This document shows positions 3,046 through 28,313 of a DNA stretch of 64,000 nt, in pieces. Location of the stretch: the NCBI GenBank assembly GCA_002989075.1, contig PSQN01000014.1, positions 1,178,001 to 1,242,000 on the forward strand, given 5' to 3'. The notes beneath the pieces were generated by a model that saw only the letters and a program-made list of their open reading frames with translations, was not told the DNA's origin and searched no databases. The position numbers were made by a program, and so were the translations under genes. Position 1 is the first letter of the stretch. Every line of letters starts with the position of its first letter. This DNA comes from Arthonia radiata (taxonomy: Eukaryota > Ascomycota > Arthoniomycetes > Arthoniales > Arthoniaceae).

Positions 3046-6000
3046 ATGGAGAGTGCTTTCGCTGCTGCCGAGGCGGCTGAGGCCACAATGCCGACCGTGG
3101 TCGCCCTGTGGGACCTTGAGAAGAAGGCTACCGAGTCACTCGTCGCCGAGTCTCAAGTGCCTGAGGCCGAATTCAAGGCCCGTACCGAGCTGAAGATTGA
3201 TGAGAGCGTCGTCGGTAGCGATGAGAGGACTTTGGTCAAGCCCCGCGACTATGCCGTGGGCGGCAAGTATCGATGTGAGTCCTGTTGATTCTTGACACAG
3301 CGGCCTTTGGCAAGATCAAGGCTCACACATGTTGCAGCGATCGTCAAGCTTTTCGGTCGCATGGAGGGACAAGCACCTGGTGCGCCATGGCTGATGGCAA
3401 CCGGTTGGCTGATCAGACCCAATCTCATTGTTACGGCTGGCCATGTTGCCTGTGATTGGGACCATAACTTTGGCTTGCTCAAGGAAATCAAGTGCTACAT
3501 CGGTTACCATGGACGCAACAAAGCCAAAGACCCCACCGTGCAATTCCGTCATGTAAGTTGTTATTGATGTGCACATTCAGACAGATCGCAGGCATCTCGA
3601 CTTGTAGTCTGCGCAGGTCGCTAATCAACTTGAGTAGGGCAAGACAGTCGCGGCGGCCCCTGAGTGGCTCAAGGGACCCAACGAACGCTATGACGTGTCC
3701 TTCATCACACTTGATAAGCCTTTCACTGGCATCAAGCCATTCAAATTTGTAAACACCCCTGCCAAAGGCAAGCTGACCATGGGTGTTGTTGGCTATCCCG
3801 GAGACCTGAAAAGCTCGGGTGAGATTCATACGGGCGAGCACATGTACGAGATGTTCTTGCAGGTCCCCTTCGACTTGAAGAAGTCCAAGGGAATGCTCCA
3901 GTACGCGATCGATACCTTTGGTGGAAACTCTGGCTCGGTATGTACCTCTGAAATTCCTCCAGTGTCTGACCTTCGTTCAGCTAATGATTGGTCATCACAC
4001 AGCCCGTTCTGGTTCAATCGAACCTCTCCTCCATCGGCGTTCATGTACTTGGCGGCAACATCAACAGTGCTTCATGCATCGGACCAGCCGGCAACAACTT
4101 CGATTCCTACATCCGTGCCTTCTCCCTGCCATCTAAGAAGGCAAAGCCCAAGGCGCCCAGTAAGACTGCTGTACGCATGGTCACTGTGCCGAAGGTAGCT
4201 ACCAAGCCGACTCTTCCGCGCAAGCCGGTCAAGCCAAGGATTGGCACCACTGTACGTCCCGGCGCTGCATCTGTCGAGGATGCGGATGCAGAAGGCAATG
4301 TCGACGGAGAAGCCGCGGCGGTCAATGATGTCGAAGGCGAGGGTGGCCTTGACGGCGAGGGCGCGGCTGATGGTGAAGCACTCACGAATGGCGTTAACGA
4401 CGAGGGCGCAGCTGATGGGGAAGCACTTACGAATGGCGTTGATGGCGAGGGCGCAGCTGATGGTGAAGGCGGCCTCGACGGCGGTGAAGGGGCAGAGGAT
4501 GGCGAAGGTGCCCTCGAAGGAGAAGGCGCAGAAGATGGCGAAGCTGTTGAAGGTGATGAAGGTCTTGAGGAAGGAGATCTTGATGCGGACGAAGCTGCGC
4601 TTGACGAAGGCACCTTTGATGAAGTAAGTTTGTCACCGACTCCATCCGACTACTACCTCTAAAACTCGCGATACTAGGATTTTGCACCTGCGGGCTCTGC
4701 TGAAGCTGCAGTTGATGATGCCTCTCAAGAAGCGGTCGTCGAGTTTGAGGAGGAGACTGCTGCCGCCGACCCAACTGAAGACGTTGAAGACGTTGAAGAC
4801 GTTGAAGACGTTGAAGACGTTGAAGACGTTGAAGACGTTGAAGACGTTGAAGACGTTGAAGACGTTGAAGAGTCTGGTGAAGCTGGTGAAGACGAAAGCT
4901 TCCTTAGTGGCATATTCAAAGCCGTTGGCAGCGTGGTCTCAGTCATTCCGTACGTCACTCTCACCTTCCGATTGCTAGCGTGTGGTAGATGCTTACTTCT
5001 ATTATAGAGGTCCATGGGGCGTCCTCGGTGGCACTGCCCTCAGCGCAGTTGGTCACGCTATCGATGGAGGTTCGCAACCGGCTCCAGCGCCGCAACCGGC
5101 TCCAGCGCATCCAAAACCAACGCCGCGGCCTCAAAAGCCACCTCCACACCGGCCTGCTCCTCGACCTGTCAAGAAGCCACCCGTCCAAAAGCCAGCCCCT
5201 CATCCCTCCAAGCCAGCCCCCCATCCCTCCAAGCCAGCTCCTCATCATTCCAAGCCAGCCCCACGTCCCTCCAAGCCTCAACCATCCAAGGGCAAACCGA
5301 AGCCAGCGCCTCAGCATCGTCCCACCAAAGCGCGCGGAAAGAAGGAGTCCATTGCCGAAGATGGTATCACCCACCGAGCCGTGCTCGCTGAAGGGGCCCT
5401 GCAGACTGTGATTCGCCTGCCCAAGACCGCCCTCGACAAGCTCGGCATCTTCACCGCGATGTCGCGCACGCTCAAAAAGACCGCACCGGCAGCCAAGCGA
5501 GCCAACCCGCTGATCTCGCAGATACTGCAGCCACTGCTTCTTCAGCTCTCGCTGCGCATGCTGCACAAACGCGCAGGCGGTCATCATGTCAAGAAGCGTG
5601 CTGCGAAGAAAGAAAGTGGTCTCGAAAGCGATTTCCGTGACGCTGCGTCTGAGGCCTTCGCCGAAGCTGTCACCACTACCAATGAATCCGAATCTGCGCT
5701 AGAATTGACGACTGAAGCCTACAGCGAGCTCGTCGAGTCTGCACTGCAGAGTGAAGTTGCTCCTCTCGAAGATCAGGTTGATGCTATCGAGTCGGCTTTG
5801 ACCGAGCTTGAATCAACCGGCGATGAAGCGACCGCTGACGGAAGCACCGAGGCTTTTCAAATCGAAGGCCTCGCCGAGCGCGCCGTCCTCGCTGATGCAG
5901 CCCTTCAAGCCCTCGTCGCTGTCCCACCTAGTCTCGCCAAGCAGTACAACATCCACGCGCTTTTGAAGCAGGAAGCGCAGACAGCTGCCGAAGGCACAAG

Positions 6001-6799
6001 CGAAGGCTGGGACCCTTCCACAATTACACAGACCGTCGTTGGTGGAGTCGGCACCGGTGCAGGCGTTGTCAGCGCTTGGGCTGCTGTGAAGATGCTGCTC
6101 GACAAGAGGCGCAAACAGGCGGCAAGACACGATATCGAGATGGGCAATCGGCCACCTTCCCGCCCCGTGACACCCCACCAGACACCACCCGCAGTGCCGC
6201 CGAAAGACAAGCCAGTTCCAGGTAAAGCAGCGCACAAGCCACCGACTCCCATTCGCAAGCCGACCGCCCCTTCTGGTCATAAGCCTGCCAGCAAGCCAAC
6301 CCCTCCTAAGAAATCGACTTCAATGCCTAATCTTCACAAGCCGGCCAAGAAGGAAGATGTACAGGACGCAGAGGCCTTTGATGAGGTTGCTGAGGATGTT
6401 GAGGACGTTGAAGCCACTGATGCCGAAGCTGTTGACGCGGAGGCTACTGACGCGGAGGCTACTGACGCGGAGGCTACTGACGCGGAGGCTACTGACGCGG
6501 AGGCTACTGATGCGGAGGCTGTCGATGCTGAGGCCGGTGCTGAGGATGCGGAGGCTGGCGCTGAGGATGCTGAGAACGCTGAAGCTGACGCTGACGCTGA
6601 AGCTGACGCTGAAGCTGGTGCTGAAGACACCGAAGCTATCGGCGCTGGTGACGACGAAGCTCAGCTGGAGAAATTCCTCAGCGCCTTCAATTACTGGGTG
6701 CACAAGCAAGCTCCCAAGAAGAGCGCCAGCCTTCCGAAGAAAAAGGTCGCGTTCAAGACCGCTGTGCAGATGCCTCGCGTGGGGACTGCTGCAGGCTGA
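3046..6799 (+). CDS. V8/trypsin-like serine protease with long repeat-rich tail
   Basis: Six exons with consistent phases: 3046-3274, 3338-3552, 3638-3937, 4003-4623, 4678-4949 and 5008-6799, giving 1142 residues. Residues ~77-285 form a chymotrypsin-fold peptidase with a full triad: His112 in VTAGH, Asp167 in RYDVSF, Ser246 in GGNSGS, closest in style to glutamyl endopeptidase/V8 proteases. The remainder is not a known protease part: Gly/Ala/Glu repeats, ten EDV triplets, a hydrophobic Gly-rich stretch (SGIFKAVGSVVSVIPGPWG...), Pro/Lys repeats, a module that occurs twice (RAVLAEGALQ and RAVLADAALQ, about 5371 and 5877), a likely membrane helix followed by DKRRK (about 6025-6110), DAEAT repeats and a basic C-terminus. 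No signal peptide is visible with the 3046 start; an ATG at 2821 is in frame but upstream residues look untranslated. The role is unknown; membrane anchoring is inference. Confidence 0.8.
4777..4866 (+). repeat. Ten copies of a 9-bp unit (EDV codons)
   Basis: GAAGACGTT is repeated ten times without interruption inside exon 5 of the protease gene. All ten copies are identical, so the tract is likely to vary in length between strains. Confidence 0.95.
5189..5272 (+). repeat. Four copies of a 21-bp unit (KPAPHPS)
   Basis: An AAGCCAGCCCC-led 21-bp unit is repeated four times in exon 6 of the protease gene. It encodes a Lys/Pro/His-rich linker within a longer Pro-rich tract. Confidence 0.85.
6419..6523 (+). 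repeat. Seven copies of a 15-bp unit (DAEAT/DAEAV)
   Basis: GACGCGGAGGCTACT and close variants are repeated seven times near the 3' end of the protease gene. The tract grades into Ala/Asp/Glu-rich sequence up to about 6660. Confidence 0.9.
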
Positions 6800-11317: not shown

Positions 11318-12473
11318 ATGCAACAAAGGTACTTGCAGGCCCCGGCGATCAGCACGAGCGCGCGCATGGGTGTTGACACTTCTGGAATCTCTAGGGAATA
11401 TCACATTGTCGTCCTAGGCTCAGGTATGCTTCTATACCTCCGATCAACGCTTCGCCGTTTCGCTATTGCAGTGGCTAACGCGCGCGTCGCATACAGGCGG
11501 AGTTGGCAAGTCATGCCTCACTGGTACGCGCATCACTGTACATTCTGTCAAGAAAGAGCAGGCAAGAATTGGCGAGACACATGGCGCAATAGCAACGCTC
11601 TCAAGGACTCCACGCTGACTGCCGGGCACAGCGCAATTCGTGCAAAACGTCTGGATAGAGAGTTATGACCCGACTATTGAGGATTCGTATCGCAAGCAGA
11701 TCGAGGTTGACGTTAGTACATCGCATTTTGAGGTACACACAAGCAAGAGCAGCATTTGACAAATGAACAGGGCAGGCATGTCATCCTCGAGATCCTTGAC
11801 ACGGCGGGCACGGAACAGTTCAGTGAGTCGCACACGCCCCAATCTCCTGCATCTTCACAGACGACAGCTGACCATTCTTCGCAGCGGCCATGAGGTACAC
11901 ACCCACTCTTTCCTACCTTCCATTCCACCACCCTCACTTCGACCCGCTTCCTCACCGAGCTCCCACCACTCTCCTCCCTCCCTCCCACCACACCGCAGTA
12001 CACCCCACCCCACCCCACAGCCCCCGCTAACACCCTCAAGAGAACTCTACATGAAATCCGGCCAAGGCTTCCTCCTCGTCTTCTCCATAACCTCCCAGTC
12101 CTCCCTCCGCGAACTCACCGAACTCCGCGAACAACTCGTCCGCATCAAAGACGACGAGAAGATCCCCCTCGTCCTCGTGGGCAACAAATCCGACCTCGAG
12201 GACAGCCGGGTCGTCTCCCGGAGTCGGGCTTTCGGGGTCAGCCAGTCCTTTGGGAATAAGCCGTATTATGAGACTTCTGCACGGCGGCGGACGAACGTGG
12301 ATGAGGTGTTTAAGGATTTGTGTCGGCAGATTATTAGGCGAGAGGCGGAGGTGAGTAGGCGGGATGAGGAAGAGCATGTGCCCGGGTATGTGAGGGAGTA
12401 TGATGAGAGGAGGCGACGGAGGAGGAGGAGGCATCGAGGGCGGAATGAGGGGAGTAGGTGTGTTATTTTGTAG
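11318..12473 (+). CDS. Rsr1/Bud1 (Krev/Rap-type) small GTPase
   Basis: Six exons: 11318-11423, 11497-11523, 11632-11711, 11771-11822, 11885-11894 and 12041-12473, giving 235 residues. The product has the Ras-fold motifs in order: [19 protein letters not shown] (P-loop), the effector region [26 protein letters not shown] (switch II), FSITS, NKSD and ETSAR. It ends in a run of arginines and the CAAX box CVIL, whose final Leu predicts geranylgeranylation and plasma-membrane attachment. The family sets polarity and bud-site or hyphal growth axes through Cdc42 regulators. TIEDSYRKQ and [13 protein letters not shown] place it in the Rsr1/Rap branch rather than Ras. Exon 5 is only 10 nt, yet the phases require it to supply Thr-Ala-Met-Arg of switch II. 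An in-frame ATG at 11366 would give 219 residues, nearer the family's usual N-terminus. Confidence 0.92.
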
Positions 12474-16919: not shown

Positions 16920-18241
16920 ATGGCTATAGAGACGCTTGAACAGATTCAAACGGCACTACAACAGCAATCAGACAGTATCGCAGCTCTCATTGGACTCACA
17001 ACATGCTTCATAATCCTGAAGTACGTCGCTGCGCTCCTCCGAAAGAACGTGCGAGCGGCTTTGGGCTGGGATGATGTCCTTGTGCTGGCTTCATACTGTG
17101 TCGTCCTCCCCATGTGTACCCTTGGCATTTGTAAGTGACCCGAGCAACTCAAGTGCTTCCTGCTGATCGTATCATCAAATCAGTGAACGCAAAAGCATAC
17201 ATGACCTTTTATGCTGCTCATGACAAAGCCTCGCAAGTCCCTCATTACGTTTGGATCCTCAAAACGTCATACGGCATCAGCCTCCTTTATCCATTGGCTT
17301 CAGCGCTCCCGAAGCTTGCAATCTGCATGCTGTATCTCCGCATCTTCAACGTCTATCCCCTGACCCGGCGTATCACCCTCGGCATGATGGCTCTCCTCAC
17401 GGCAAATGCTATTGCTTGGCTGGTTCCAACGATTGTAGTCTGTAACCCGATCTCCGCCTATTGGAGTGTGGAGGGACACAAGGGTCGGTGTCTGAACTAC
17501 AGTGTCTTCGGCACTTGGATCAGCCTACCCAACATTGTGACCGACATCGTTCTGCTGATTATCCCGATCCCTATTTTATGGAGGACTCATATCAGTCTAC
17601 CCAAGAAGGTAGGCTTGATCATAACTTTTGCGACCGGCAGCGTGGGTATCGTCTCTGCGTGCCTGAGGTTGGGCTTCTACATCCAACGCACGTACGTCGA
17701 CCGACCTGGGCCCAAAAACCAGACAATAAGTAAGTGCTGCATAATCATGGTTCTTCCGTTCATATGATAGTCTACCGGTCATGTGAATCAGGTCACGGGC
17801 GGCGGCAAAGAGATCTTTGATACTGACTTCGAACAAGAATCCGTCACACTCGACGTCATCGTCACCTTCCTAGAATGCGGCACATATCTAATTGCCGCCT
17901 GTCTACCGTCGCTTCGAATATTAGTCGTCCGAGTCCACAAGTTTCTATCAAGCAGCGTTGCATCATTACTGGATAGAAAGCGACCTCGTTGCTCCTGCGA
18001 ACAGAACAGTCCACCCTCAGATGAAGACAAACACTCGGACAAGATGCCGGTTGATAAAGTCTTTGTCAAATTGACTGGCATAGGCAACCTTGACACTCTC
18101 GCTAGGGAGGGTCAAGCGATTGGTGTCAGCGGTGTTCGAAGCGGGGATTGTGAGCGGGACAGTATGGTGAGAAACGAGGTGGAAGCACATGAGGAATCCG
18201 CTTCGATTTGTCATGTGTGTCGCTGCGTCAAGGCTTACTGA
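16920..18241 (+). CDS. Fungal rhodopsin-domain (SAT4/PTH11-like) integral membrane protein
   Basis: Exons 16920-17130, 17184-17729 and probably 17811-18241, about 395 residues. At least six and probably seven membrane segments follow the plan of the fungal rhodopsin-domain family: IAALIGLTTCFIILKYV, LGWDDVLVLASYCVVLP (the GWDD motif between TM1 and TM2), LPKLAICMLYLRIF, the ITLGMMALLTANAIAWLV stretch with a following VCNPISAYWS, LPNIVTDIVLLIIPIPILW, VGLIITFATGSVGIVSACLRL and, near the end, LECGTYLIAACLPSLRIL. The cytoplasmic tail (~100 residues) is hydrophilic. Members are common in plant-associated fungi and some act as surface sensors (Pth11); a ligand is not known here. The last acceptor is my choice because it restores the TM7 frame; the obvious TAG at 17770 would shift frame to an early stop. 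Confidence 0.82.
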
Positions 18242-18467
18242 GGTGAACACCGAAGGCTTACTGAAGTGAGATGGGGAGCGAGAGTCTTCATATATCCTCG
18301 ACTATTTGGGCAACAGAGCGCCGGTGCTTTTGTCTCGTGTTTCGATCGGCACATCGAGACACACCCTCCAGCGAACCCGCAGCCCCCTCCAACCCCATTT
18401 TCCACTCACCACTCCACTTCGACCTTCCCACTTCTCCTCTTTTCCTCCTTTTATTTCCCTTGTTTAT
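18242..18467. other. Short interval between convergent genes
   Basis: The rhodopsin-domain gene and the small minus-strand gene run toward each other. The interval is C/T-rich on the plus strand (about 18360-18470) and holds both 3' ends. Confidence 0.4.
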
Positions 18468-18647
18468 CTATCCGTCGAATCTGTCGCAGTAGACCTCGTC
18501 GGTCTTCCCAGTGATGATCGTGAACGGGCCAAACGTCTTGTCGCAGAGCTTGTTGTTTCGCTTAGCTTCCTCGCAGGGACAGACACGCGGGGAGGAAGCG
18601 CCTCCGAATAAGTAGCCGCAGCGAAGGCATTGGAGTTTGTGGCACAT
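18468..18647 (-). CDS. Small Met-Cys-His family protein, member 1
   Basis: A 59-residue frame on the minus strand starting MCHKLQCLRC, with Cys at 2, 7, 10, 23, 25, 35 and 54. The C2-x4-C7-x2-C10 start, a central Cys, Cys35 and a late aromatic-Cys (VYC) match the other small genes in the next 8 kb. This member ends soon after the late Cys and lacks the final C-x2-C pair. It is the only member on the minus strand and sits head to head with member 2. No signal peptide, so probably intracellular; metal binding is inferred from the Cys spacing. Confidence 0.7.
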   Translation of the reverse strand: MCHKLQCLRCGYLFGGASSPRVCPCEEAKRNNKLCDKTFGPFTIITGKTDEVYCDRFDG

Positions 18648-19589
18648 CGTTAGAGAGTTGTGGATGATCCGTATCGGGGATGGCGGTCAGGGAGATTGGT
18701 AGGTGATGAGGGCTTCAAGAACTGCGTCTCGGAAGCTGATTTGTGCGATCGTTTCGGCGTCTGATGTTGCAAAAGAGCTTGCGATGTCTGAATGTTTTTG
18801 TTTGTGAGATTTAGAAGAAGGCGGTGATTGGAGCAGTGTTTACAGGATACGCGTTGTAAGCGGCGTTGACGGGTGAGCAAGGCATAGACATGGATAAGGG
18901 CCTTGTTGAACACAGATGGCATTGAAGGCTTCTTGCGGGATTGATGGCTTCTCGCGGACTTGACGGCTGCTCGTAGCCTCGACGGTATCGCGGGGTCCGA
19001 CAGATGCCGAGCGCTTTGTCCGGTATTTTCCGTGAACATGAGGGCTTCAGACCACGATGCGCGTTTTATACCGTCATGGTGCGCCCATGGCTATGACAGG
19101 CGTTCGCTGGGATGCTCGCGGTTCCTTGTATGACACTCACGTCTACTCACGCGACCGACGAGCGCTTTGATCAATTACGGCTTCTTCGGGTCTGCCAGCT
19201 CATCGCGGCCATAACAGCCTCTCGTTGTTGACGGTATGAACGGCCGGCCATGGTATGGAAAGCTACCGGTGGGCGTGACGGTTGCGAGTGGCCTTGACAG
19301 CTTGACGCGTCCTTGAGGGTTGTTGATGATATGCGCGGCCGCTCGCGGTATTAAAGGTCATCCCTTGTAACAAACGTACTAATATGCAGTCGGTAACCGC
19401 AATGCGGTGATGCATATAAAGCTCGTCTTGCGCTCGTTGATTGATGAAGCAAGACACCATCACATCATCCAAGAGCACACACTTACCGACAGACATCGAA
19501 TACAACAGCCAACAAGACCAAATCAATCACCACGAAGAATTTTCAAGCACACCCTTTCTATCGAAGTGACAACCACACTCACATCGACT
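18648..19589. promoter_or_regulatory. Divergent promoter of family members 1 and 2
   Basis: The 942-bp interval carries outward-facing TATA-like boxes: TATAAAACGC on the minus strand (19070-19061) and TATAAA on the plus strand (19415-19420). Between them are many scattered TTGACGG/CTCGCGG-like words. A 129-codon minus-strand frame (18650-19039) overlaps the presumed leader and shows nothing recognisable. Confidence 0.4.
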
Positions 19590-19850
19590 ATGTGCAACCC
19601 CTTCAAGTGCGCCGGGTGCAAACGGGGTTTCGACACCACCATAGCGCCAAGCAAAGAGGCATTCGACAAGACCAACTTCAAGCTCTGCGACCCACTCGGC
19701 CCACCGGCTGATACGGTGTGGCATCCATCAGCAATGGATTATGCCAAGGCGAGATGCGCAAATTGCCTGGAGGAGGATGGGAGTATCTGTATCAGCGGTT
19801 ACGAAGCGGACGATGAGGACGATGAGGACGAGGGTAGAGTGAATAAGTGA
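19590..19850 (+). CDS. Small Met-Cys family protein, member 2 (acidic tail)
   Basis: 86 residues, MCNPFKCAGCKRGF..., with Cys at 2, 7, 10, 33, 56 and 59. It keeps the C-x4-C-x2-C start and the late C-x2-C pair (ARCANC) but lacks the central Cys near residue 20 and has Asn in place of His3. The C-terminus is a short acidic run (EADDEDDEDEG) not seen in the other members. A TATA-like box lies ~170 bp upstream. It is the most diverged member. No signal peptide. Confidence 0.7.
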   Translation: MCNPFKCAGCKRGFDTTIAPSKEAFDKTNFKLCDPLGPPADTVWHPSAMDYAKARCANCLEEDGSICISGYEADDEDDEDEGRVNK

Positions 19851-20510
19851 CGGTATGGGGAGAATGAGGTTGTTGCGCTGGTGTTGTACGGTGGAGGTGG
19901 GTTGTAGACGGCTGGCTGAGGCCACGTGTGTGGTTGCAGTAATGAATGGATGTCTTGCTGGCAAGGTACCAAACGGAAGTATGCCTATGTTTGTGTGCGC
20001 TCACATGACTGCTTCTTGACGGCGTGCGATGGTAGCGCTCATGATGATACCTGCATTCCTGCGGCAAATCCTCGTAGATCCCCTTTCAGACGGTAGCAAA
20101 TATCCATGATGTCGTGAGTGGACGTGTTGATCTCCGCGCTGCTGCGTTGTACACACGTAGCCAGTCAAGCGAGCTGTCTGGCCTCTTCACATGTTTTGCA
20201 AGCCACGTACTCATCTTTTCTCTTCCATGGGGAATATGGTTCGTATCATCCTCTACCCGGGACCTCCGCTAATCCTCGTAAGGTAATCCCGAGCCTCGGA
20301 CAAGATCTCCGATTGGTCGAGGGCCATCACCCGAAAGCTGTCGAGCGTGTCGGACGTCTCCGACTACCATGAAAATCCGTTTCCACGGGATTCTCATAGT
20401 AGATTCGTTGAATCCGTGGAACTCTTGGGCGATATCCATGGAAAATGTGTCCACAAGATTCCGTCGATGTGGCACTGTAGAGATATGATGTGACGTAGTC
20501 TAGACATCTC

Positions 20511-20520
20511 GACAGCTTGT
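20511..20520 (+). promoter_or_regulatory. Shared upstream element GACAGCTTGT (member 3)
   Basis: Lies 166 bp before the member 3 ATG in a longer conserved stretch, GTGACGTAGTC...GACATCTCGACAGCTTGTGCAACCTG. A TATAAA follows at about 20550. Confidence 0.6.
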
Positions 20521-20676
20521 GCAACCTGCTTCTGAATGCCGTATGGTATAAAGCACACTTCTCACAACTACGAACAATGTTAACATTGCATCTCATACAT
20601 TTTATCTCAGACTCGCTAAAGTTTCCATCATAGCCACCCTACATACAACAACCTCTAAAGGACAACAGGGAACAAG

Positions 20677-20910
20677 ATGTGCCACGAAGGTTTGTGCCAC
20701 TCCTGTCAAAAGCATATCTCCGTGATCGGGTGGTGCAAGAAAGCCACCAGCGAAAACAAACCATGCGAGACATTTGGTCCACGCGTCAGCCAACACCCTG
20801 AGAATCCACAGGCCATCTATAAGTGCGGCGATTGTGGGCGAGGGCGAACAGAACAGCCCGGTGTGACACGCATAGGCAGTTCTGGTATTGAACCGGGCAG
20901 GAAACGCTAA
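20677..20910 (+). CDS. Small Met-Cys-His family protein, member 3
   Basis: 77 residues, MCHEGLCHSCQKH..., Cys at 2, 7, 10, 20, 30, 50 and 53, with SQHPEN before the last pair. The tail GSSGIEPGRKR is nearly the same as in member 4, and the two also share sequence after the stop codon (AGATAGGCGATACTC...GACTGTCGAACTT), so they are the most recent pair. The seven cysteines and His3 could hold one or two Zn ions; no known zinc-finger class fits exactly. No signal peptide or membrane segment. Confidence 0.75.
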   Translation: MCHEGLCHSCQKHISVIGWCKKATSENKPCETFGPRVSQHPENPQAIYKCGDCGRGRTEQPGVTRIGSSGIEPGRKR

Positions 20911-21286
20911 GCGCGATAGCGATCGAGCATTAGATAGGCGATACTCAGACTGTCGAACTTATAAGCAAAGTTTTCTTCGCTGCCGTATCTTTACCTGGTG
21001 CTTTTTAAGTGGACTACTGATCATAGGGTTGATTTTCTCAGCGTTCGCATAATGATTATACCCTGAATGTTGTCTGCGACGCTATCTGCGACGCTGCGGT
21101 TAAGCTCGAAAGAGGTAGTCCTCCGATTGTGTTGCGACTCTACGCTGTCGCGTATTGCACCCGTTTAGGGGCCCTTTACAGCTCGTGCGAGCCACGTAGC
21201 CATCTGTCATGTTGCATAGCAGATCTGGCTTGTAGTGATCGCATGGTAGTCCGTAGAGCCGGTCCGTGACGTGGTCCGGACATCCT

Positions 21287-21296
21287 GACAGCTTGT
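21287..21296 (+). promoter_or_regulatory. Shared upstream element GACAGCTTGT (member 4)
   Basis: Lies 161 bp before the position of the family start codon, within GTGACGTGGTCCGGACATC then TGACAGCTTGTTCAACCTGC. Confidence 0.6.
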
Positions 21297-21447
21297 TCAA
21301 CCTGCCTCAGAATCTCACGTGGAACATAAGACCCTTCCACTCCCACGAATGTAAAGATTTCGTCTCCCACATCTTACCTCACACTCTCCATCTTGGCCAC
21401 CCTACAAACAACAATCTCCCGAGAACAACAGAAACCAAACGATCAAG

Positions 21448-21693
21448 ATATGCCACGCAGGAAAATGTCATCACTGCAGCAAATTGCTCCCCGGTTCCGT
21501 CTGGTGGTGCAAGAAAGCGCATGACGAACCATGCGAGACCCTCGAACCAGCCGTCAGCCAACACCCTGACCCTGGGGACGATGAACTTATGAAGACTGCT
21601 ACCATGAAATGCAACGATTGTGCGCGGGGACGAATAGAGCCTGACGTAACACGCGTGAACAGTTCTGGTATTAAATCGGGCAGGAAACGCTGA
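21448..21693 (+). pseudogene. Small Met-Cys-His family member 4, start codon reads ATA
   Basis: The frame is intact for 81 codons (xCHAGKCHHCSKL..., Cys at 2, 7, 10, 21, 29, 55 and 58; tail SSGIKSGRKR), but the codon at the family's fixed start is ATA instead of ATG. The next ATG nearby (21450) is in another frame. The change equals a G-to-A on this strand, the kind RIP makes at CA/TG sites. All other features, including the promoter element and the 3' flank, match member 3. Either this copy is silenced, or initiation uses a near-cognate codon or an upstream spliced start. Confidence 0.6.
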
Positions 21694-22057
21694 GAGGCGT
21701 GGCGACCGAGCATCAGATAGGCGATACTCGGACTGTCGAACTTGAATAGAATCAATATTCTTCCTCGCTCCCGTATCTTCGCCTATTGCTTTTAGTATGA
21801 ACTTCTGGTCATGACTTTGAGTCTCTTAGCATCCGCATGATTGTTACAACCAGGGGGTTGTGTGCGACGCTGCGACAAAGCTTGAGAGAGGTGGTTTTCC
21901 GGGCGTGTTGCGACCCCTCGCGATTGCGCATTGCACCCGTTTCGGGGCCTTCGTAATTCTTGCAAGCCATGTACTGCGAAGCGGATTTGCGGCGTAACGA
22001 CCATAACGATCGTGTAATAATCTGTAAAGCCGTTATGCGACGTGGGTCGGACAATCT

Positions 22058-22067
22058 GACAGCTTGT
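22058..22067 (+). promoter_or_regulatory. Shared upstream element GACAGCTTGT (member 5)
   Basis: Lies 176 bp before the member 5 ATG within GCGACGTGGGTCGGACAATC then TGACAGCTTGTTCAACCTGG. A TAAAAG follows about 45 bp later. Confidence 0.6.
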
Positions 22068-22233
22068 TCAACCTGGAGGCTAGATGTGAACCCTACCTAC
22101 AATAAAAGACGCTTCAGTTCCCACAGATCTCAAAAACTTATCTCACATATTCTTTTTCACACTTACCGAGCTCCCTATCCTAGCCACCTTACTCACAGCA
22201 ACCTCCGAATTACAACAAAAACTAAGGAACAAC

Positions 22234-22431
22234 ATGTGTCACTTCATCAAATGCTCCCGCTGCAAAAACGTCATCATCGATTCGATCGGGTGGTGCAGCA
22301 ACGCCTCCAGCACCCGCGAGCAATGCCAGAATATTGACCCTGCGGTTGACAGACACCCTGAAGACAAGAAAGTCATCTATGACTGCGTAGACTGCAGCCG
22401 AGGACGCTCGGAAGTGAAGTCACGAAGGTGA
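22234..22431 (+). CDS. Small Met-Cys-His family protein, member 5
   Basis: 65 residues, MCHFIKCSRCKNV..., Cys at 2, 7, 10, 21, 31, 51 and 54, with DRHPED and VIYDCVDC before a short basic tail (SRGRSEVKSRR). The tail starts like that of member 3 (GRGRTE) but is cut short. Confidence 0.75.
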   Translation: MCHFIKCSRCKNVIIDSIGWCSNASSTREQCQNIDPAVDRHPEDKKVIYDCVDCSRGRSEVKSRR

Positions 22432-22997
22432 AACATGTCTGAGCTGAAGTACAGAGCGCATGGTAGTGTGTCGGAGTGGCTGAGAGTGATCTTGACGAGA
22501 CTTAGATAGGTGGTGCTTTGATAGCTGAATTTGAAGAAGATCACCCTCTTCCTGAGCTCCTGCCTCTTCGCCGCGTATTTCCTTGAAAGGTGTTGCGGCC
22601 CCGGGCTCGAGTATGAGGCATTGTAGCGATCGCTTAGCGTCGCGCATTGGGCCTGTTTTGACGGTAAGGGGACCATCTCGCGCGCCCCCAATTTCTGCGA
22701 GCTACGCGTCGGGCCTTTCACTACGAAAGCGGATCGGGGCTCATAGTAGAGCCTTCAAGCGACGTCGGTCAGACATCTTGGTTCGTGACAGATTCTTGCC
22801 ATGTGTCCTTCAAACCCATGCTTCAAATGGAACGCTCTCTCCACCGCAACCAATAACAGCGTCTCGACTAGCTATCTTCTTTACCTACATCCAGCTGCAA
22901 TCTCAAGGAAAACTCGCTTCTCCACTCACAGCTCCCTTTGTCTACATTCAACCCCGTGTTTGAATATCGTCTTGAGAGCCCCGAGAAGCATCGAACG

Positions 22998-23234
22998 ATG
23001 TGCCACCTAGGAAAATGCTATCTGTGTGGCAAGCATGCCCTCGAAAACATCTTCCAGTGCAAGCACGCTGCCGATGATGGCAGGAAACCGGGCGGGGATC
23101 CAGATAAAACATGCGACGTCGTCGACGAGAAACACTACACGGGTGCCCCAGATAACGACGTACCGTACGCGTGCAAGGGTTGTGCTACAAAGCCACAGGA
23201 ACGGGCGACGACCAGGAGAGTAGAAATATTCTGA
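22998..23234 (+). CDS. Small Met-Cys-His family protein, member 6
   Basis: 78 residues, MCHLGKCYLCGKH..., Cys at 2, 7, 10, 21, 39, 59 and 62. It has a longer loop between the central and the fifth cysteine than the others, then VPYACKGC and a basic tail with TTRRVEIF, like SSRKVIEI of member 7. The upstream block is only partly conserved (GCGACGTCGGTCAGACATCT at about 22759). Confidence 0.75.
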   Translation: MCHLGKCYLCGKHALENIFQCKHAADDGRKPGGDPDKTCDVVDEKHYTGAPDNDVPYACKGCATKPQERATTRRVEIF

Positions 23235-23435
23235 TGTACATCGCCGTGTTGGAGGAGCGGAATCATCGAGAGACAGCCATCCGAGCAATTACCTAGCGTC
23301 GCGCCTTGTGCCGTTTTGATAGCAAGCGAGCCGAAGCGGCCGCCCCAAACTCCTGCAAGCTACGGAGATATTCATATTTTTTTTGCAAGTCGGATCCTGT
23401 CAGAGAGCTATTATGCGACACTAGTCGGACAGTTT

Positions 23436-23445
23436 GACAGCTTGT
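23436..23445 (+). promoter_or_regulatory. Shared upstream element GACAGCTTGT (member 7)
   Basis: Lies 156 bp before the member 7 ATG within GCGACACTAGTCGGACAGTT then TGACAGCTTGTCCAG; TTTATATTC follows. Confidence 0.6.
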
Positions 23446-23591
23446 CCAGATTAGTCCTTTATATTCTTCTCTCGTAAAGCCAGAGGCAATGTTAATCCTA
23501 CCAATTTATTCTCTCGCCCTCCACTGACCCTGAACTCAAAATCAGTCGTCCTTCCTGAACACCACAAAAGAACAAACATTTCAGCCAAAGA

Positions 23592-23801
23592 ATGTGTCAC
23601 AAAGGCATGTGTTACATTTGCAGCAAGGAGCTTGTCGACAGGATCTTCCACTGTAACAAAGCTGTCAAGGAGGACAGAATGTGCGACACCATCTCGGGAC
23701 CATACGGCAGTCATCCCGATCACGATATCATTTACTCATGCAAGGACTGCAGTGCAAAGCTGCCGGACCACTCATCGTCCCGGAAAGTTATCGAGATCTG
23801 A
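23592..23801 (+). CDS. Small Met-Cys-His family protein, member 7
   Basis: 69 residues, MCHKGMCYICSKE..., Cys at 2, 7, 10, 21, 31, 50 and 53, with SHPDHD and IIYSCKDC. The C-terminal RKVIEI matches the end of member 6, so these two form a second close pair. Confidence 0.75.
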   Translation: MCHKGMCYICSKELVDRIFHCNKAVKEDRMCDTISGPYGSHPDHDIIYSCKDCSAKLPDHSSSRKVIEI

Positions 23802-24529
23802 TGTACATGGTTGTAGAGGCAGGGCGGAATGGTAGAGACGAAGGTTATCTATGGGGAAGACGACTTAGTACTCATGTATAGGCAGTGTTTGCAGCTGGTA
23901 GTTGAACATTCGCTTGTCGCACCCAGACTTGTGACGCGCTGACGTGGAAATTGTGCAATAGTGACGGTATGCAGAGCCTGACGGTGTTTTGGACAGTCTT
24001 GTCACGACTCCGCGCCGTCGTCCATTGCGCGCATTTCGATACTAAGTGAGACATTTCGCCCCATCTCAGCCGCTGCAAGGTGTCAAGCGATATGTTTGTC
24101 GGTCTTCTTGAACAGCAGAGCTGAGATCCTGGGAGGAATACTCTGTAGCGCTAGTCGAACATCGTGAGTGGAATACGGGCTAGTTATTTGCAACATGAGC
24201 ATCCTAGCGATTACCGCCACAGCATCGGGAATTGCACCTTGTCCGGAAAGAGTCCTGACGTGTCCCTGCTCGTGAAGTGCCACAAGCGGCGTGCACAACC
24301 TTTTGAACAGCTGTGCTCGGTGAAAGCTCCCCTTTAGTTGACAAACATGTAAAGTCAACGTGTTGTCATCGACTGTACTTTCAAGTTAATATCTTGGCCC
24401 TAGAAACACTATCTTCGCTGTTTCCGAAGTGCACTGATAAGAATCTTCTGGCCAACACAGTTGTCACATTACAAACGCTAAAAGCCATTTTACCAGCCAT
24501 TGCTTTGTGTGAAGAAGTATCAACCAAAC

Positions 24530-24757
24530 ATGTGCCGCCACCTCAGATGCCCGCGGTGTTCTGATATCTGCGACTTTTTGCGCTGCGAAAAAGCGAAGAA
24601 AGAAAAGAAGGAATCGTGCTCCACCCTGAAAGAGCCCTTGGAAAAACATCCAGAAACGGGATTGCCTCTCGCTTGCGAAGACTGCCTGACTCCGGAGGAA
24701 AAAGCAAGGATAGTGCCGGAAGGAGAGCCATCTCGCGGACGACGCAAGGCGCGTTGA
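24530..24757 (+). CDS. Small Met-Cys family protein, member 8
   Basis: 75 residues, MCRHLRCPRCSDICDF..., Cys at 2, 7, 10, 14, 19, 30, 49 and 52, with EKHPETG and LACEDC, then a charged basic tail (SRGRRKAR). His3 is Arg here with His at 4. The upstream region lacks the GACAGCTTGT element in clear form. Confidence 0.72.
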   Translation: MCRHLRCPRCSDICDFLRCEKAKKEKKESCSTLKEPLEKHPETGLPLACEDCLTPEEKARIVPEGEPSRGRRKAR

Positions 24758-26210
24758 GTATCTGATACAGAGCCTTGCTCGGAGCTCGGGTTGCTATTGA
24801 CAGCACGATCGCGTGCGCAACCGACGGAAGTTTGAACGTGTTTGGAGGAAGACGTGTGTGGTCGAAAGAACGGAGACCCATGAGCGTGCGGGTTAAGAGA
24901 CCGCCACTGTTTTCTGATCTGGTACGAGCCGAGCCAAGCGTGACGTCCTGGTATGAGCTAGATATTAGACTTCACGCTGGAATGGTAGATTAAAACTATG
25001 TCTGAGCGCTGCATGCGATGTGTCTTCCTGCAAAGTTGCTGCTCTCCGTGTGCCCTCATCAAGATCCTTTTGGTCGACACAAAGGGCATGATACTGTCCT
25101 CTACTCCATCTGCTTGATGGTAAAAGTTTTGTCTAGCACGACCAAGCGACCTGGACTTTCCTCAGACTTCCACATGTCCTGCGCACGACCGTAGCTACAA
25201 CCCTGTAAAGCGGCGTTTTACATGTCCGCTGAAACAAGGCGGGCTACGCTTACCGTCTCCACGGCGTTAATCATTGAGATTTTATACGTCCAACCAAACG
25301 AAAGGTAAGACCGTGCGCGCTGAACGCATCGTGTGGGGTGTCTCAAGCTGCTTCAGCGACGTGTATATAGCACAGATGCCTAGACGGCCCGTGCACAATA
25401 ATCATGATGGACGTCACGTGAATAGTTCTCTTAATCGGCAACCGGCAAATATGTGCAAAACTATCAAGTTTGTTTCCCTTTATCTTCTGCCCTACCATGA
25501 TAAAATTTGGGGCAATGTCTCCCTAGTAAGAAGCCCTGAAACGCCCCTTGAACGCTCCTACGAACGCCTCTACGAAGACGTCTACGAATAGAGAAAAAGT
25601 AAGCGTCGCCACTTATAGAGATGCTCAAGAGACTGTCGTACAGCGCTTGAGGGCCGTTTGTAGAGGCGCTCGTTAGTCTCGCACAGTCTTTTGTAGGACC
25701 CATCTTGAAAGGGAGGCGGCGTGTCGATACCAAGGGGCGAGCCATAGATTTATCGCTAGTGGTATCCAAGGCAGAAAATTATTGTTAGTGGTAGCTCTGG
25801 TAGATTAGGTCGAACTTGGTGGTATCGCAGATATTTGCCGGTTGGCAATTCGCACTCTTAGAACCACAAGGCAATGTCGACTGCATTCGCGTTTGGGTCC
25901 CGTCCACTGGAGGCTCGCTTGCTGACTTGGCAGCTGCTGTTTGTATCGATGCACGTTTTATTTAACGTGCGCAATAGTCCTAGCGAGTTTGTGATACGCT
26001 TCCCATGGGAAACACCATGGACATCGTGGGAACTCTGTGGAACATCCTGTCCGCGGGCACATAATCGTGACAGCGTGTCGCAATGGCTGTTTGCCATTTA
26101 AAGGCCGCAACATCGTCGTGTTCTCCACCTTTCTTTCTGTAGAAGCAGACTTCGCAACACATCCATCGCACCGTCCACTCTTCCTTTCCATTACACCAAC
26201 CGCCGGCAGA
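24758..26210. other. Gap in the small-gene array
   Basis: A copy could have been lost here: the spacing to member 9 is about twice the usual. A frame at 25451-25591 begins ATGTGCAAAACT (MCKTIKFV) but has no further cysteines and is not convincing. Nothing else is supported. Confidence 0.35.
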
Positions 26211-26393
26211 ATGTGCCACAAACCACAATGCCACAAGTGTGGCGAGACATTCCACACCCTCATCGTAAGGTGCTTTGAGCACCAGGGCAAATCCACGACA
26301 TGCCAAAACGTCACTACCTCCACCACAGACACGAACGGTCAGAAGTACTATGGCGATACCTGTGTGCCGAAGGATGTACGGAAGAATGGCTAA
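26211..26393 (+). CDS. Small Met-Cys-His family protein, member 9
   Basis: 60 residues, MCHKPQCHKCGETFH..., Cys at 2, 7, 10, 21, 31 and 51; the last pair is reduced to a single Cys (GDTCVPKD). A longer in-frame ORF begins upstream at 26037, but the family start at 26211 is preferred because every other member starts at this Met-Cys. Confidence 0.7.
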   Translation: MCHKPQCHKCGETFHTLIVRCFEHQGKSTTCQNVTTSTTDTNGQKYYGDTCVPKDVRKNG

Positions 26394-27303
26394 GGGCACG
26401 TTCAGTGTTGGTCACGATTAGAGCTATGTCTAGGACGACACTGCCGACAATGCCTTCACGTTGAAGTGAGTGGCTGCTCGTGGCGGTTCGTGGCAACATT
26501 ATAGACTCATGTCCTCGCGTGCGCCTTCGAGCAGAACAACATTTGTCGACTGATATCGGCGAACTTTCCTCGTCTGGGGCCTTGGTAGCACACTTGAATA
26601 AATGACAGATCCCGAGCGTCGTATGTTCAAGCGGCATGAGTAGACCTGCTATGCGCGACTATTGTTTTTGAGTGATGCTTGCGCTCTGCTTTAGTGTGCA
26701 ATACTGCTTCTTTCAACTTGATGACCTTGTCACGTGGTTATACATGTTTTAGCAGCTGATGACCATCTTTTGTTCGAGGTAAGAAGCTGAGAGAGGGAAC
26801 GACAAAGAAAGAGCGAATTTCCATTGCGCCAAGGTACTTTCGTCACAGCGCTGTTGCTGGGGTGATAGCGTGCACATCAACAGTCTTCATTGCACCTAAA
26901 TTTTCGTAGGCACACTTCTGGACGTTTGATGGTCCCATCAGGGTTGTTTGGTCAGCCGCGTTGAAGTATACCCTTTGCTCGCTCGTCGTCTTGCGCTGCT
27001 CAACCTGAACTGGCTCGATGACCGCTCAAAGGCGCCACGAACATAGCGCTCCTCGTGTTGCGCCCTGGAAGTTCACATTGTACCTTACTTTCTATAGCAC
27101 TCTTAAAAGTACTGCTGAGTGGTCGTCGGCATCTTATTTCCCTATCACGTTAAAGTCGGCCTCCTTTACGGACCATACCTCATTTCCATCTCTCGATCAG
27201 CCAAGAGCGCTTCGAATACCTCCAAGCCTTTCTTGATCCACACTGCCATCTCTTCACGTAACTTATAAGTCACGCAATCGTAGCAGTAATGCAGCCCACA
27301 CGT
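26394..27303. other. Intergenic region, no supported gene
   Basis: Only short frames with no shared motif. No further copy of the small cysteine family was found here on either strand. Confidence 0.4.
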
Positions 27304-27681
27304 CTATCGAGGGTGATCACGCCACCTATAGGTGCACTCCGAGGCTCGGGTCTGTGCCTGTTCAACGTAACGATGAAGAATATGTCGGGCGCGAGCGCAC
27401 GAGTCAACGCTCACGTCTGCCATGTCCGCAACAGCTCGCGCATATGCCTCGAGCGCAGGCGTCGCTGGATCGGAAGCGCAGTGCTGTGTTATCGTACAGT
27501 ACCACAGTGGAGGTGGTCGGTTGGGTATGTTATCTTCAACTGGGTCGGGACTTCTGGCGCGGAATCTAGACCTGGTGGAATCGCTCATGTTGCGGGTAAT
27601 GTCCACATAAGCAATCAAGTAGTTGAACAAAGCGTCGAGAGACGCTTGATCAGGAGTTGCGGAAGAGGTCGTTGAGGCCAT
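27304..27681 (-). CDS. Hypothetical 125-residue protein
   Basis: An uninterrupted minus-strand frame, MASTTSSATPDQASLDALFN..., with helix-like acidic and polar segments (LDALFNYLIAYVDITRNMSD; ALEAYARAVADMADVSVD) and a basic Pro/Arg linker. No family recognised, no signal peptide. Codon choice is typical of the host genes around it. Could be a single exon of a larger gene. Confidence 0.4.
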   Translation of the reverse strand: MASTTSSATPDQASLDALFNYLIAYVDITRNMSDSTRSRFRARSPDPVEDNIPNRPPPLWYCTITQHCASDPATPALEAYARAVADMADVSVDSCARARHILHRYVEQAQTRASECTYRWRDHPR

Positions 27682-28313
27682 AGGGATTGGATATGTCGAA
27701 CCGAGTTTTGCAATGATCGAGAACAGGGTGGTGCAATATTCAGAACATCCAGGCCAGGTGAGGGCTTGTCAGTCTTGAAGGACTGTAGGTTCCGGCAAAC
27801 GCATCTCCAGGTCAAACGAGCGAATGCAAACCTCGCCACCTTGCACGAATATGCGCCTGACCAACAGGCACGCCCTCCTCTCGCCAACGACTCAAAACAC
27901 AATTGAGTAGGTTATAGCAGCTCCCTGCCTAATAGCTCCATAAATCCATCGCGACCCTCGACTTATGCTCGGATTCATGACGCAGCATTGCCATTGGACG
28001 TCCTTGGAGCTTCATGTCATGGAGTCTTCATCTTCAAAAGATCTTCGTAATGTAATAGCATGCAGCATCGAAGGTGCAGAAAGACTGAAGAGAAATGCAA
28101 GCGGTCTGCTGCAACTCATACACGAATGCTAAGGTTGTAGGCTGTTACGCTGCATGTCATGCTGCTGTGGCCCCAGAGCTGTGTCTGGGGCTGAATGTGC
28201 CAAGCTTTTTCTTGCGATGCGAGTCTGTTGCGCGAGACGGTAAGTGAGCATTCTGAGTTGCCGTGGCGGACACCCAGATGAAGCACCCAGTGACCGGAAA
28301 CACATAAACCAAA

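Follow-up and report, generated by a model that had tools for sequence, protein, structure and literature searches.

A tandem array of nine small cysteine-rich open reading frames lies between positions 18468 and 26393 of a 64,000-nucleotide stretch of the Arthonia radiata genome (hereafter the window). The cysteines of these frames are under constraint, members 3-5 and 6-7 of the array lie in DNA-level repeats, an upstream element recurs before four of the frames, and arrays built on the same cysteine scaffold occur elsewhere in the genome. As a whole, we read the array as a set of real genes for small intracellular, metal-binding, zinc-ribbon-like proteins that diverge between fixed cysteines, an interpretation to which we give roughly even chances. 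The window corresponds to C5:1178001-1242000 in a 33.5 Mb assembly of 16 contigs, which was the sequence source for all genome-wide searches (C2, C5, C9, C10, C12, C13, C14 and C15, where followed by a coordinate or used of a region, denote contigs of this assembly).

Nine frames on a common cysteine plan

Translation recovered all nine frames that a preliminary description had placed in this region. Member 1 is on the minus strand (18468-18647; 59 residues, starting MCH, without the late Cys-x2-Cys pair). The others are on the plus strand: member 2 (19590-19850; 86 residues, MCN, with serine replacing the central cysteine and an acidic tail), member 3 (20677-20910; 77 residues, MCH, with all seven scaffold cysteines), member 4 (21448-21693; an open frame with seven cysteines and ATA as its first codon, translated from the following codon), member 5 (22234-22431; 65 residues, MCH, complete scaffold), member 6 (22998-23234; 78 residues, MCH, complete scaffold without an HP motif), member 7 (23592-23801; 69 residues, MCH, complete scaffold), member 8 (24530-24757; 75 residues, MCR, complete scaffold and a basic tail) and member 9 (26211-26393; 60 residues, MCH, without the late pair). 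The spacing C2-x4-C7-x2-C10, proposed as common to the whole set, is present in 9/9 (member 4 being numbered from its ATA codon), and the looser features of the proposed plan also hold: the central cysteine expected near residue 20 in most lies at ~19-25 in 8/9 (serine in member 2), the one expected near 30-39 at ~29-39 in 9/9, HP is found in six members (2, 3, 4, 5, 7 and 8) and the late C-x2-C in seven (all save 1 and 9). The count of seven Met-Cys-His starts needs correction, since only 6/9 begin in this way with ATG; members 2 and 8 read MCN and MCR, and member 4 has no standard start, with ATA at 21448 where the other eight have ATG. A Met-Cys start encoded with ATG is found in 8/9. The suggested lack of a signal peptide agrees with the N-terminal hydropathy of all nine proteins (maximal 11-residue Kyte-Doolittle mean 0.19-0.94; a simple hydropathy check, not SignalP).

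The nine frames are not a product of chance. Under a criterion of an ATG start, the pattern MC-x4-C-x2-C, at least 55 residues and at least six cysteines, the 8.1 kb from 18400 to 26500 contain eight frames as against none in 1000 dinucleotide shuffles, and the rest of the window contains none. Two signs of coding are independent of the cysteine motif. The base at -3 is A at 9/9 array starts, compared with 100 of the 325 ATGs found between 18000 and 27000 (those of the array among them), and the GC content at third codon positions of the eight ATG members is 0.56-0.75, with values of 0.71 and 0.64 for two neighbouring long frames. A weak additional sign is given by TATA-like words 114-175 bp upstream of 5/9 starts.

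Joint duplication of genes and upstream regions

DNA self-alignment places members 3, 4 and 5 inside a direct-repeat stretch on the plus strand (20490-22572), in which 20490-21783 aligns with 21266-22572 at 63.7% identity over 1360 columns. Shorter common DNA blocks (63-69% identity) link members 6 and 7, a weaker repeat than that of members 3-5. Tandem repetition at the DNA level is thus seen for 3-5 and, less strongly, for 6-7, and the start-to-start spacing across members 3-8 is 594-938 bp. In addition, an element of ~36 bp recurs on the plus strand 174-194 bp before members 3 (20493-20528, 184 bp before the start), 4 (21269-21304, 179 bp), 5 (22040-22075, 194 bp) and 7 (23418-23453, 174 bp); at equal tolerance the window has no further copy, and neither 30 kb of C12 nor 10 kb of C14 contains one. 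The DNA repeats combined with this element indicate that gene and upstream region were copied jointly. New copies would therefore arise by tandem duplication of units that include this region, begin under the same regulation, and then diverge while keeping the cysteines and the Met-Cys start.

Protein BLAST within the genome extends the array beyond the DNA repeats. Member 3 retrieves members 4, 5 and 7, while member 7 retrieves members 3-6 and also 8, which is joined to the array by this protein likeness (E 0.0099 from member 7). For members 1, 2 and 9 the same search returns each query alone, so it is the cysteine plan by itself that makes them members.

Divergence between fixed cysteines

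The family was expected to be fast-evolving, and protein identity to member 3 is indeed 22-60% while the cysteines stay fixed. Among members 3-8, compared on a protein-guided alignment, the proportion of synonymous differences (pS) exceeds that of nonsynonymous differences (pN) in 15/15 pairs, which are not independent of each other. A lack of synonymous excess, one of the outcomes that the preliminary description named as counting against the family, is therefore not what these members show. The ratio of nonsynonymous to synonymous substitution rates (dN/dS) is 0.27-0.54 in the nine pairs with finite dS, dS being saturated in the other six. An alignment made from DNA only gives codon position 2 as the most conserved and position 3 as the least conserved in 4/4 tested pairs. 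All seven scaffold cysteines are present in 6/6 of these core members, and both TGC and TGT are used at 5/7 of the cysteine positions.

Searches for known families

The impression that the proteins correspond to no named domain holds so far as searched in Pfam, NCBIfam and PDB profiles. Nothing reached the curated Pfam cut-off for the nine window members and seven further proteins, nor for 11 minus-strand members of a C12 array (described below) and five more proteins. Sub-threshold Pfam matches are mostly to zinc domains or families of unknown function, the best for member 1 being RUBY_RBDX (PF21349, 18.5 of 26.5 bits) and for member 3 Zn_ribbon_19 (PF14369, 14.6 of 30.8 bits). NCBIfam gave nothing above cut-off for five proteins (two from the window), PHROGs nothing below E 0.001 for four proteins (best E 0.048), and PDB profile searches covered four alignments, those of the window returning best E values of 0.82 (nine-member profile) and 1 (a microsporidian protein, 3q87_A). 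There was no Rfam match in 17000-28000, no match among viral contigs searched with member 3 or plasmids searched with member 7, and no description of this family in a literature search by title and abstract start.

Among known structures the likeness is to zinc-ribbon or rubredoxin-like knuckles, in the form of two CxxC pairs set apart in sequence (both present in 7/9 members). The window proteins differ from these in the extra Cys2, central cysteine and cysteine near 30, in starting exactly at Met-Cys and in matching no curated model.

Arrays with the same plan elsewhere in the genome

The pattern MC-x4-C-x2-C occurs at 91 places in the genome, compared with 27 for a reversed control pattern; loci for 30 of the 91, plus 20 chosen stretches of the remainder, were examined, and the single motif places that were translated gave mostly short frames. 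The largest set, at C12:1708688-1730766, comprises 23 Met-Cys frames in two blocks, one on each strand. The minus block has 16 ATG frames (starts 1719278 to 1730766), 11 of them with the exact motif, and one further frame with an ACG start at 1727243. Six frames make up the plus block (starts 1708688 to 1712644); x6 replaces x4 in these, and one begins with ATA. M1, C2, C7, C10, C19 and C35 are invariant in the 11 exact-motif frames. A related pair of Met-Cys frames (68-70 residues, 8-9 cysteines) is located at C14:1011718 and 1012325, and a search with a C12 member retrieved a single frame at C2:1978270 (E 0.001). Of 15 minus-strand starts examined on C12, 12 have A at -3 (two have G and one has C), as does one of the two on C14. 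The C12 arrays resemble the window array in the Met-Cys start, a CxxC after x4 or x6, a central cysteine, a late cysteine pair, tandem order and similar length, a likeness that is partly by construction, as the C12, C14 and C13 frames were selected by MC-x4-C-x2-C or by Met-Cys and cysteine count. They differ from it in loop lengths and in the CaaX-like ends of two members, where a basic stretch is followed by GCCQIM or GCCRIM. Six-frame translation of 30 kb of C12 yields no other CCxxX-stop, and no window member has a CaaX-like C-terminus. Such ends direct prenylation in the cytosol, and by this rule the two C12 proteins would be prenylated there. A third C12 member contains GCCNVM, but its frame continues past it.

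Common ancestry of the window and C12 arrays was initially suggested by a profile comparison (E 1.3e-4, probability 54). We dropped this proposal after a shuffle control, in which the non-cysteine columns of the target were permuted (150 shuffles per comparison), revealed that cysteines alone can yield such scores. The real score was reached by 9/150 shuffles for the window versus the C12 plus block, 35/150 for the window versus the minus block and 134/150 for the two C12 blocks versus each other. Beyond the cysteine scaffold itself, these alignments thus do not support a shared origin of the arrays. Concerning homologues elsewhere, same-scaffold arrays do exist in this genome, but their likeness beyond the cysteines is not significant. 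A Cys-x2-Ala motif, chosen post hoc, is common to 7/9 window members (an eighth has serine for cysteine) and 4/6 frames of the C12 plus block, and may serve as a lead only. A match of the C12 minus block to the RING domain of RNF4 in the PDB search (E 0.00055, with 22 weaker matches, over profile positions 13-48) was set aside as a cysteine-spacing match, with the N-terminal cysteine group outside the alignment. The first frame of the C14 pair has a sub-threshold RING match of its own (E 0.0043, 17.5 of 50 bits).

An actinobacterial protein of the form MC-x4-C-x2-C-GKxTWxGCGxH likewise resembles the window proteins in its Met-Cys start, C7, C10, a cysteine ~8 residues further on and a size of ~40-55 residues. 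It differs in having its own TWxGCGxH core, which is absent from the nine window members, and C35-x2-H38. The core is found in 80/80 kept bacterial loci (partly imposed by the search pattern), as are C2, C7, C10, C18, H21, C35 and H38 (C18 and H21 being part of the pattern). In the shuffle control the real score was reached by 21/150 shuffles against the window and by 43/150 and 11/150 against the C12 blocks. Pfam gave no match for the one such protein tested. A 44-residue frame within C13:1938211-1940240 is related to the 40-55-residue actinobacterial MCxxxxCxxCGKxTWxGCGQHV protein. The actinobacterial frame is not listed as a gene in five plasmid stretches with gene tables (PLSDB tables being incomplete), and a sixth stretch has no genes listed; in 2/6 plasmid copies it adjoins thioredoxin, MBL-fold and TauE/SafE genes.

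Eight of the 91 motif places are near-identical 30-base matches, apparently copies of one dispersed repeat (C2:1553362, C5:1050317, C9:815525, C9:1482760, C10:553043, C10:2090680, C14:1596408 and C15:33430).

Genomic surroundings of the array

The preliminary description placed the array next to a transposon block and took expansion there as a sign of a fast-evolving accessory family. An AT-rich stretch with the marks of repeat-induced point mutation (RIP), putatively transposon DNA, does lie nearby at 30001-52000, outside the family (composite RIP index 1.04-1.48 across its eleven 2-kb steps; -0.18 to -0.60 over the array steps). A causal role of this block is weakened by the larger C12 set, which is located in DNA without RIP marks (index -0.32 to -0.81 and no RIP-like stretch throughout the 30 kb examined), so that such a block is not needed for arrays of this kind.

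Two other frames were noted in the window. The one at 4979-6799 is long and has proline/lysine-rich and (DAEAT)n-like low-complexity stretches. Another, at 11760-12473, follows a long low-complexity stretch, perhaps an intron, and reads like what we take to be the end of a Ras-type GTPase (NKSDL, a basic tail and a C-terminal CVIL).

Interpretation and alternatives

Metal binding by the window proteins is plausible in view of the fixed CxxC pairs. One zinc-ribbon-like site would be made up of the two pairs (C7/C10 and the later one, near 50), and a second site or a redox-active set could be provided by Cys2, the central cysteine, the cysteine near 30 and sometimes the histidine of HP. The proteins would most likely act as small intracellular adaptors or regulators, in which the scaffold is fixed and the loops are free to change partners. 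Zinc as the metal, the fold, the location in the cell and the adaptor role are inferred.

Several observations weigh against this interpretation. No Pfam zinc family reaches its cut-off for any window member; the late CxxC of members 1 and 9 and the central cysteine of member 2 are missing; and member 6 is without the upstream element at the tolerance used (a weaker trace is seen in the alignment). The hint of a cytosolic location given by the CaaX-like ends comes from a C12 array of unsupported kinship, with no such end in the window. In members 3-5, moreover, the upstream DNA is conserved about as well as the coding DNA, and with member 5 as outgroup the branch of member 3 carries 6 synonymous and 15 nonsynonymous changes and that of member 4 carries 9 and 17. 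This parity and these branch counts mean that constraint outside the cysteines is weak, and the overall picture is that of a protein fairly free to change save at its cysteines.

The same branch counts, with recent changes on members 3 and 4 nearly unconstrained, fit an old family that is mostly losing function while its frames are still open. Decay of this sort would also account for the scaffold cysteines missing in members 1, 2 and 9 and for the three array members that retain an open frame and nearly all cysteines with no ATG (ATA at window position 21448 and at C12:1709185, ACG at C12:1727243). Each of these codons is one transition from ATG, and recent start loss and near-cognate initiation both fit them; the scan that identified them required an open frame of 36 codons and six cysteines and would have let early-stopped members escape. 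Against decay, cysteines are fixed and frames open even in members at 22-44% identity to member 3, pS exceeds pN in every pair of members 3-8 and A is kept at -3 before every start in the window, which makes it unlikely as an account of the array.

Another explanation would turn on the Met-Cys start itself. As in plant Met-Cys proteins, methionine would be removed and the exposed cysteine oxidised, so that the protein is destroyed or kept according to oxygen or nitric oxide; on this view the fixed position of Cys2, next to Met, would be the essential feature of these proteins. Cys2 is indeed present in 9/9 window members and in the C12 and C14 frames (those picked by Met-Cys), and an excerpt of PMC11773813 states that certain proteins whose N-terminus is Met-Cys are under the control of the Cys/Arg branch. 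On the other hand, Cys2 may simply serve as a metal ligand, and an exon-by-exon search of the genome detected neither the thiol oxidase family PCO_ADO nor the arginyltransferase family ATE_C, a weak negative in that its controls were detected in only 0/14 and 1/14 genomes. We regard such a sensing tag as distinctly improbable.

Effector families are often small, cysteine-rich, tandem, fast-changing and near RIP-like DNA, as are the window proteins and their genes. Hence, they might be host-directed effectors released without a signal peptide. The hydropathy of their N-termini shows no signal peptide, and the CaaX-like ends in C12 point to the cytosol, though kinship of that set to the window array is unproven; we see only a slim chance for this alternative. 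A metallothionein-type metal store is the least probable of all, for although the proteins share with fungal metallothioneins a small size, a high cysteine number (6-8 in 59-86 residues) and an intracellular location, their cysteine content is lower (~8-12%) and arranged in CxxC spacing on a single conserved scaffold, in place of a dense, repeated CxC (a single CPC occurs, in member 1).

The interpretation as an array of diverging metal-binding proteins may have a wider frame. Similar rows of genes in this genome hint at a larger unnamed protein class. In Ascomycota, hypothetical proteins of small size with a Met-Cys start are widespread; on that basis the array would be an expanded branch of such a class and not a one-genome novelty. 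A more far-reaching version, which we hold only tentatively and consider less probable than the interpretation of the window array itself, is that the genome holds an unrecognised superfamily of tiny cytosolic Met-Cys metal proteins in several tandem arrays with copied upstream regions. In these the cysteine frame would be fixed, loops, tails and cell address (plain, basic or CaaX-lipidated) would turn over, and some copies would be on weak near-cognate starts (ATA, ACG) and not dead.

Significance

Fungal proteins that are small and rich in cysteine tend to be taken for secreted effectors, and the window provides a set of them without a secretion signal or a family model. A profile built on this set would enable others to recognise and name a class of proteins that annotation may overlook, and the three members with altered starts offer a direct test of near-cognate initiation in a fungus. 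Zinc binding, if combined with a change of partners through diverging loops, would make the proteins a simple natural case of a fixed mini-scaffold under diversification. Should the more far-reaching version be true, the fungus would possess a rapidly diversifying repertoire of intracellular mini-proteins, evolving at the tempo of effector families and acting inside the fungus itself, with a possible role, for example, in self/non-self or conflict signalling.

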